Positions 47,454-49,150 of a stretch of DNA of 64,000 nt are shown here, piece after piece. The notes under the pieces are model-generated. The model was not told the DNA's origin. It did not search any database and worked only from the letters and a program-made list of their open reading frames with translations. A program made the position numbers and the translations under genes. The stretch comes from Sedimentisphaera salicampi (GTDB lineage Bacteria; Planctomycetota; Phycisphaerae; Sedimentisphaerales; Sedimentisphaeraceae): assembly GCF_002117005.1 (NCBI RefSeq), contig NZ_CP021023.1, positions 1,240,001 to 1,304,000 on the forward strand, in the 5' to 3' direction. Within the stretch, counting starts at the first letter, position 1, and the number at the start of each line of letters is the position of its first letter.

Positions 47454-48509
47454 ATGAAAAATTTAGCAGTTATTTGTGTATTGTTGTACTCAAGCATTCT
47501 TTTTGCCAATTCTGCGCCGGAAGTTACTAACGTACAAGCCAATCAGAGAACCGATGGCTCGGGGATTGTTGAGATCTCTTACACGCTATCCGATGCCGAC
47601 GGAGACGCCTGCCAAATCTCAGCGGCCGTAAGCGACGACGGCGGAGAGACATATTCAATCACCCCAACCGACCTCTCAGGCGATACAGGGGGAAATATCA
47701 CTCCGGGCAGCAGAACTATATACTGGAACAGCAAAGCTGATCTCCCGGGAGAATACGGAGAGAACTACAGGGTGAAAATTACTGCCGATGACGGGCAGTC
47801 TCCCGAAGGGCCTGCGGGGATGGTCTGGGTTTATATTGATGATCCCGGAGTAAGCGGTCATGAAGGCTTTACCGGTTATATGAGCAAGTATGAGACGACA
47901 AACGCCCAGTACTGCCAATACCTCAATGACGCCCTTGCCTCGGGCGATATTGAAATGAATAACTACAACATTTACGGCAGCAGCGGGGATTATTCAGGCC
48001 AGATTTACTACGATATGGATGATACACATGCCCAGATATCCTACTCAGACGGCTCTTTCTATGTTAAAACCCGAGACGGGTATGACATGAGCGACCATCC
48101 TGTAGTGGAGGTAAGCTGGTATGGAGCGATTGGCTTCTGCGAATACTACGGCTACAGGCTCCCCACAGAGTGGGAGTGGCAGGCTGCGGCAGACTACGAC
48201 GGCTCATATACCTACGGCTGCGGAACCAGCATAGACCACAGCAAGGCCAATTATGATGATGACAACCCGCTCGGCCTATCAGGCTGGCCATATACAACCC
48301 CGGTCGGCTATTACCCAGCCTTCGGCTACGGCCTGTGCGATATGGCGGGAAATGCTTGGGAATGGACAAACTCTATCTACAGTGATAACTATCGTGTTCT
48401 CCGCGGCGGCAGCTGGTACTACTACGACTACAACTGCTCCGTCTCGTACCGGTTCAGCTACGTCCCGTACTATGCCAGCTATGGCGGGATCCGTGCTGTG
48501 CGTCCGTAG
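47454..48509 (+). CDS. secreted formylglycine-enzyme-fold (SUMF1-like) protein with a diversified C-terminus
   Basis: 351 residues with the signal peptide MKNLAVICVLLYSSILFANS. Residues ~20-115 form an Ig/fibronectin-like domain (PEVTNVQANQRTDGSGIVEI, YWNSKADLPGEYGENY). The rest is the formylglycine-generating-enzyme fold: GFTGYMSKYETTNAQYCQYL, HPVVEVSWYGAIGFCEYYG, YRLPTEWEWQAAADYDGSY, GLCDMAGNAWEWTNS and VLRGGSW. These proteins share the C-type lectin-like fold used by diversity-generating retroelement targets. The final ~30 residues are full of Tyr, Ser, Val and Ala at positions that are Asn in ordinary relatives (see the variable region entry). Probably a surface ligand-binding protein, not a sulfatase-activating enzyme. 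Confidence 0.88.
   Translation: MKNLAVICVLLYSSILFANSAPEVTNVQANQRTDGSGIVEISYTLSDADGDACQISAAVSDDGGETYSITPTDLSGDTGGNITPGSRTIYWNSKADLPGEYGENYRVKITADDGQSPEGPAGMVWVYIDDPGVSGHEGFTGYMSKYETTNAQYCQYLNDALASGDIEMNNYNIYGSSGDYSGQIYYDMDDTHAQISYSDGSFYVKTRDGYDMSDHPVVEVSWYGAIGFCEYYGYRLPTEWEWQAAADYDGSYTYGCGTSIDHSKANYDDDNPLGLSGWPYTTPVGYYPAFGYGLCDMAGNAWEWTNSIYSDNYRVLRGGSWYYYDYNCSVSYRFSYVPYYASYGGIRAVRP
48411..48506 (+). other. putative diversity-generating retroelement variable region (VR)
   Basis: After the constant RGGSW (48402-48416) the codons are TAC, TAC, TAC, GAC, TAC, AAC, TGC, TCC, GTC, TCG, TAC, CGG, TTC, AGC, TAC, GTC, CCG, TAC, TAT, GCC, AGC, TAT, GGC, then GGG ATC CGT. Nearly all the odd codons end in C or T and differ only at the first two bases from AAC or AAT. 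Undiversified relatives typically have an Asn-rich stretch at this place. Change at adenines with the third base kept is the mark of adenine-directed mutagenic homing. The template repeat is not in the window. Confidence 0.7.
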
Positions 48510-48572
48510 TCTCTGGATTTTCTTTTTCTGTTTTACGGTTTGCAGTTTTACATTTTTAATGGGGGTGCAGGG

Positions 48573-48592
48573 GGCTTGCCCCCTGCCGAAGT
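48573..48592. other. GC hairpin downstream of the VR (possible IMH-type cruciform)
   Basis: GCAGGGGG, loop CTTG, CCCCCTGC: an 8-bp GC stem with a 4-base loop, 63 bases after the stop codon. Retroelement targets often have a stem of about this size just downstream of the variable region. No T-run follows, so it is not an ordinary terminator. It could also be an unrelated repeat. Confidence 0.4.
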
Positions 48593-48763: not shown

Positions 48764-49150
48764 ATGGAAGAAAAGATATTATATAAAGAGCTTTCGGATA
48801 GGATTATTGGATGTGCCGTGGAAGTGCACCGAGTATTGGGTCCGGGTTTGCTTGAATCTGCTTACAATCAATGTCTTTGCCGTGAGCTGGATTTGAATGG
48901 GATAAAATTTGAGCGTGAAAAGCCTTTGCCTGTGGTCTATAAAGATACCAATCTCGACTGCGGCTACAGATTAGATATTCTTGTGGAAGGGAAGGTTATC
49001 GTTGAGCTTAAAAGCGTTGAGGCTATAAAAGGCATCCATGAAGCTCAGATTATTTCTTATATGAAGCTTGCTGATGTGAAAAAGGGGTTTCTGATTAATT
49101 TTAATGTGGAAATGTTAAAGAACGGATTGAAAAGCTTTGCTATTAAATAA
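48764..49150 (+). CDS. GxxExxY-family protein (PD-(D/E)XK-like)
   Basis: 128 residues. The family name motif is visible in HRVLGPGLLESAYNQCLCRE (G-L-L-E-S-A-Y). The PD-(D/E)XK-type core follows: YRLDILVEGKVIVELKSVEA, with D, E and K in the usual order. Function is unknown in the family; a nuclease-like fold is expected from the motif. GAGAG upstream serves as the ribosome site and lies within the flanking repeat. The gene sits alone between two direct copies of a palindromic repeat, so it looks like an inserted cassette. Confidence 0.88.
   Translation: MEEKILYKELSDRIIGCAVEVHRVLGPGLLESAYNQCLCRELDLNGIKFEREKPLPVVYKDTNLDCGYRLDILVEGKVIVELKSVEAIKGIHEAQIISYMKLADVKKGFLINFNVEMLKNGLKSFAIK

Follow-up and report, generated by a model that had tools for sequence, protein, structure and literature searches.

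The window, the stretch of 64,000 nucleotides (64 kb) of the Sedimentisphaera salicampi genome that was analysed, contains a gene of the FGE (formylglycine-generating enzyme) type. The features recognised in this gene and behind it were the following.

47454-48509, plus strand: the window gene, an open reading frame for a secreted protein of 351 aa
48399-48506, plus strand: the variable region (VR) of the window gene, recognised by codon statistics, a codon-position test and synonymous codon identity
48510-48522, plus strand: TCTCTGGATTTTC, an IMH-like counterpart of the VR 3' end, the motif found after the stop in VR-type genes
48523-48560, plus strand: degenerate remnant of a 26-nt T-rich element, recognised by alignment to the flank of L029, a homolog in a sister species
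48567-48586, plus strand: GC-rich hairpin GCAGGGGG-CTTG-CCCCCTGC (DNA fold z=-2.45)

An earlier, sequence-only reading had let the feature end at 48509; the VR does lie there, but the target-site sequence continues to 48522 and the hairpin follows at 48567-48586.

The N-terminus of the window protein is hydrophobic and its C-terminal domain is an FGE-sulfatase domain (SUMF1/C-type-lectin-like; Pfam PF03781, E=1.1e-30). The predicted structure of the FGE domain (pTM 0.84) matched formylglycine-generating enzymes, the model being weak (low confidence) at residues 201-206, inside the variable stretch. The assignment to FGE concerns the fold, not enzyme activity on sulfatases. Among its weak sequence matches was TvpA (2y3c, E=1.8e-5), a variable protein of a diversity-generating retroelement (DGR) of Treponema denticola. 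TvpA and TaqVP of Thermus aquaticus are both FGE-type C-type-lectin DGR variable proteins (PMC6328139); they share the FGE-subtype C-type-lectin fold and the C-terminal VR with the window protein, whereas their VRs, unlike that of the window, belong to complete DGRs. DGR targets have a C-type-lectin (FGE) or Ig-like fold with the VR at the C-terminus, and by Pfam match and model the window gene has the FGE fold, which the earlier reading had named as known for such targets. Directly 3' of the gene, positions 48764-49150 encode a protein that by eye resembles the GxxExxY family.

The VR opens with the conserved codons CTC CGC GGC GGC AGC TGG. After RGGSW, positions 48417-48485 read TAC TAC TAC GAC TAC AAC TGC TCC GTC TCG TAC CGG TTC AGC TAC GTC CCG TAC TAT GCC AGC TAT GGC. 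Five of these codons (TGC, GTC, TCG, CGG and CCG) are constant across the family, and the remaining 18 are variable and without exception NNY (18/18, P=1.5e-5 against the genomic NNY fraction of 0.54), so the claim that nearly all codons after RGGSW keep C or T as third base was correct. The third base is C in 16 of the 18, while C and T are equally common there genome-wide. This is the codon pattern of a DGR target, in which differences are confined to template adenines. At the 3' end of the VR, GGG ATC CGT GCT GTG CGT CCG represents a decayed GFRV: the copy has GIRA instead, is one codon short, carries a few non-adenine changes and is followed by an eroded T-rich element. The claim that differences occur only at adenines thus stood for the codon-position signature, which was significant (see below), but not for this end of the copy. 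Against the nearest template, that at L135 in another genome of the order, there was an adenine excess (p=1.1e-4), yet 23 of 99 non-adenine sites differed too, the copy's own template being missing. A length change by a single codon was also seen in L139b and L162, which are targets of living DGRs.

Living DGRs were found in relatives. Genome G234, of the same order, has a complete DGR at L135 (avd, reverse transcriptase (RT) and template repeat (TR)) with the targets L147, L150 and L152; some of its targets lie on contigs other than the template's. The G234 template is of the same type as the window VR (RGGSWNNNANNCRVANRNNNNPNNTNNNIGFRVCR, then stop) and reads CGC GGC GGC AGC TGG AAC AAC AAC GCC AAC AAC TGC CGG GTT GCC AAT CGC AAC AAC AAC AAC CCG AAC AAC ACC AAC AAC AAC ATA GGG TTC CGG GTG TGT CGG TGA. 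Asn had been expected at the variable positions of ordinary relatives; it is found instead in the template repeats of related DGRs. VR L147 was changed at 19 of the 34 template adenines and VR L152 at 26 of them, and neither at any of the 71 other sites. The G234 DGR resembles the window in target fold, in the template layout RGGSW-NNN-x-NN-C-x-V-x-x-R-NNNN-P-NN-x-NNN-x-GFRV and in having CTGGATTTTCT after the stop; it differs in being complete and evidently recently active, and its template has CRVANR where the window VR has CSVSYR. On contig 78 of G234 (L159), one DGR lies between two FGE targets that share a template; the first is changed at adenines only, and the second is one codon shorter.

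The sister species G001 also has a complete DGR (L024: target, avd, RT and template), whose VR differs from its template at 19/37 adenines and 0/68 other sites. It is like the window in its FGE-fold target, here beside an avd-RT-TR cassette and with adenine-only differences, but its template is of the type RGGSYNNNDNNLRSSNRNNNNPNNENNNIGFRVAS and its target has a PEP-CTERM-like tail. A fourth orphan-like VR of the S. salicampi genome (L013 / L161:4650-5615; G000:2175183) belongs to a PEP-CTERM-type FGE protein, and its C-terminus resembles the G001 template, with differences at 18/37 adenines and 13/68 other sites (p=0.0018). As an empty-site comparison for the G001 DGR this gene was uninformative, the two loci not being syntenic.

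The sequence behind the window VR was compared with these systems. In G234, the identity of template and targets runs past the stop, as far as CTGCATTTTCT on the template side and CTGGATTTTCT on the target side. In DGRs studied earlier, IMH* and IMH are told apart by a difference of this kind (PMC4891356). Exactly where this identity runs past the stop, the window reads TAG TCTCTGGATTTTC, the 3' counterparts of which are CTGGATTTTCT in active VRs and CTGCATTTTCT in their TR; the window VR is thus followed by an IMH-like sequence of the sort that DGR targets have at the VR end, near-identical there to the 3' end of the template. CTCTGGATTTT occurs once in the 64 kb, at 48510-48522. The motif also stands directly after the stop in L008, L029, L036, L051, L059, L064, L065, L066, L073, L074 and the active VRs L147 and L152. 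In other genomes of the order, roughly a dozen VR-type genes have it in this place, and no ordinary FGE paralog does. Further downstream, the window and L029 flanks aligned with a score of 55 (best of 2,118 background segments, 30), and the best match of the 26-nt element in the window had 10 mismatches. The hairpin at 48567-48586, one of seven such hairpins in the 64 kb, sits where L162, which holds a complete DGR, and the G001 DGR target also have a hairpin after their VR; its role can only be inferred. In phage DGRs the VR is followed, after 4-34 bp, by a GC-rich hairpin with a stem of 7-10 bp and a GRNA loop (PMC3240598); that of the window has an 8-bp stem, the loop CTTG instead of GRNA and a distance of >34 bp. 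The hairpin was rejected as a mark of targets throughout the order, since it was inconsistent and not found after every VR.

Two more FGE paralogs of the same genome, L007 and L008, show the codon pattern (NNY 19/19 each), which is absent from the corresponding stretches of its ordinary FGE paralogs (L009, 12/19; L010, 12/20; L011, 15/19). G001 has two VR-type homologs, L036 and L029. When these were paired by N-terminal domains, L036 was the counterpart of the window gene, the two proteins having this domain in common (54% over 123 aa), and L029 that of L008 (55% over 207 aa). The VRs of L008 and L029 differ at codon positions 1, 2 and 3 in 13, 9 and 1 of 24 codons, whereas upstream of the VR the differences number 34, 34 and 74 of 179 (p=6.5e-6 for the shift). 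For the window gene and L036, compared in a codon alignment, the values were 38, 35 and 81 of 173 upstream and 14, 11 and 4 of 23 in the VR (p=8.7e-5). Three ordinary ortholog pairs, used as a control, gave no codon-position shift (p=0.15-0.78). In addition, synonymous codon identity at conserved residues of 18 VR-type loci was 0.65 in the VR and 0.36 upstream (p=2.8e-4). The between-species comparison thus had the outcome that a DGR predicts: conservation of third bases and synonymous codons is not produced by selection at the protein level, whereas it does result when a DNA template is copied and mutated at its adenines. The low third-position difference between L008 and L029 means that at least one of the pair was rewritten well after their divergence began, or that the VR backbone is constrained at the DNA level, or that it spread horizontally, three possibilities that the data do not tell apart. 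L008 is intact, with VR, 3' motif and T-rich element all kept, and L007 has lost the 3' sequence entirely. Copies that decay once the machinery is gone would be expected to look like L007 and the window copy.

The conserved 26-nt T-rich element (consensus CTTTGCTCTTTNTTCTTTTACCCTTT, its other strand purine-rich) was found 30-135 nt behind the VR of many DGR targets, in several phyla. A scan of the 1.42 Mb of fetched sequence, allowing at most 4 mismatches, gave 15 distinct matches, and all 14 with enough upstream sequence lay directly behind a VR-like FGE gene, in a set that is enriched in FGE genes and in which stretches directly behind such genes make up only about 1% of the total; the reversed pattern gave 0 matches in the same sequence. 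In the order, the element accompanies targets of three template types, and it is present at Nitrospira and Methylococcaceae loci too (L008, L024, L030, L056, L064, L073, L074, L078, L092, L106, L139, L147 and L162 among all of these), and at some loci a hairpin with a GAA loop comes next. When 2.9 million viral contigs were scanned for exact matches, two were returned, in near-identical contigs with a complete DGR; the element there has the VR on one side and a GC-rich hairpin with a GAA loop on the other. The element is not part of the template and so is not delivered by homing. It may serve in target recognition, its place corresponding to that of the hairpin that the Bordetella phage DGR needs (PMC3240598). 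No description of it was found in the literature searched, which is no proof of absence.

The sequence-only reading had suspected that the source of the variation lay elsewhere in the genome or was lost. The whole-genome search that it called for, for a template repeat beside a retroelement RT, was performed on the assembly (one contig, 99.89% complete) and neither was found. The genome has five RTs: a group II maturase and three identical group II-type RTs (L001-L004, TIGR04416 above cut-off), and a different RT with a nitrilase-like fusion (L005). None of the five has the DGR motif (I/V/L)GxxxSQ (PMC3521204), their motifs being QGSPLSP, QGSILSP and LGMNFSP, and a bona fide DGR RT used as query matched only the group II RTs. 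They were therefore rejected as DGR RTs, being of the group II intron type or fused to a nitrilase-like partner (judged by eye). L005 (G000:1682152), a 966-aa open frame, resembles RTs associated with defence, Drt3a being a weak match. The VR backbone pattern matched only the three VR copies and one chance site in the genome, and the A-rich template pattern was absent. The genome's only PF05635 protein (G000:2182283) was rejected as Avd, since it lies between gatA- and gatC-like genes with no RT or repeat nearby. The genome thus has no DGR-clade RT, no template repeat and no Avd, and of the two suspected fates loss is favoured.

The search was extended to relatives labelled Sedimentisphaerales/Phycisphaerae. 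No template matching the window VR was present in 397 genomes of the class, where the matches were other DGR templates (G006, G143, G235), a VR (G310) and a probable chance match (G063); for this reason, an exact TR-to-VR adenine correspondence is not demonstrable for the window copy. Viral contigs gave no match to such a template and no confirmed relatives of the FGE protein, and phage and plasmid records gave distant FGE proteins only. In the order, a DGR RT is present in only 6 of 161 genomes, and orphan VR-type targets are widespread.

The identification of the region as a DGR variable region was supported by the codon-position signature against internal controls, by a DGR with a homologous template in the order and by the target-site sequence kept directly downstream. 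A VR signature in a genome without DGR RT or template marks an orphan variable region, here partly decayed, and we consider it very probable that the C-terminus was written by a DGR whose RT and template have since been lost or were on a transient element. The RT would have copied a template repeat with many AAC codons, putting random bases in place of adenines, and the mutated copy would have taken over the 3' end of the FGE/C-type-lectin-fold gene. In this way 18 residues, on what is presumed to be the ligand-binding face, would have changed, with the non-adenine bases and the 3' target sequence left unaltered. The missing template would have had the backbone CGCGGCGGCAGCTGG...TGCxCCGTCTCGxACCGG...CCG...GGGTTT, with AAC at the variable codons. 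RT and template would then have disappeared from the genome, or have come on a transient element, and the gene, as an orphan target, would now evolve by ordinary mutation. That the variable residues are surface-exposed and bind a ligand is presumed by analogy with solved DGR variable proteins (PMC6328139).

We infer loss of the DGR rather than its supply in trans by an unsequenced replicon. Continued diversification by a DGR that the strain or its population carries outside the assembly, be it on a plasmid, a phage or another element, seems unlikely to us. It would suit the single third-position difference in 24 codons between L008 and L029 (74 of 179 upstream), with at least one of the two rewritten after the species diverged, as well as the intact VR, 3' motif and T-rich element of L008 and the G234 VRs on other contigs, which indicate action on remote targets, as has been reported for Thiohalocapsa (PMC10907252). 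The nearly complete one-contig genome without RT or template, the decay of the window copy (GIRA) and of L007 (3' motif lost) and the viral contigs without a template match all speak against it. We give a similarly low chance to the idea that this lineage never held a DGR and received the VR in diversified form from a relative that had one, through horizontal transfer or gene conversion. The VR backbone is unusually conserved across families at the DNA level, and the window gene and L008 are close in their FGE domains and unlike in their N-termini, as such an origin would have it; however, this genome has three copies, each diversified in its own way, the sister species has two, and with N-termini matched between species (window gene and L036, L008 and L029) repeated transfers would be needed. 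Ordinary paralog divergence, with positive selection for a ligand-binding surface and no retroelement, is very improbable. Surfaces rich in Tyr, Ser, Gly and Asp are common in binding sites, and amino-acid replacement is indeed concentrated in the loop here, but this leaves unexplained the conserved third bases and synonymous codons, the conserved noncoding DNA after the stop and the match to the G234 template and targets.

Orphan targets as such are already known. In T. denticola, target genes occur in strains without the core DGR and were described as leftovers of DGR loss (PMC4891356); like the window gene, they are VR-bearing genes that remain without RT or template. In that species, however, the template survives in sister strains, whereas the window VR had no matching template in the 397 genomes of the class, and orphans of the window type are spread over an order. 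What is new is this order-wide spread and the 3' sequence that marks the orphans. Since DGR surveys begin with an RT or with template/variable repeat pairs, targets that have neither are missed, and the codon signature together with the 3' landmark recovers them in a genome without a DGR. A more tentative idea, which we regard as possible but doubtful, is that the 26-nt element is an undescribed target-recognition site outside the template homology, which would let transient mobile DGRs rewrite remote targets, vanish and leave fields of orphan VRs behind; if the element is needed for homing, remote and orphan targets would be findable by sequence alone. The many VR-type genes and few DGR RTs in the order suggest that DGRs turn over fast while the receptors persist, and that DGR activity has been underestimated.
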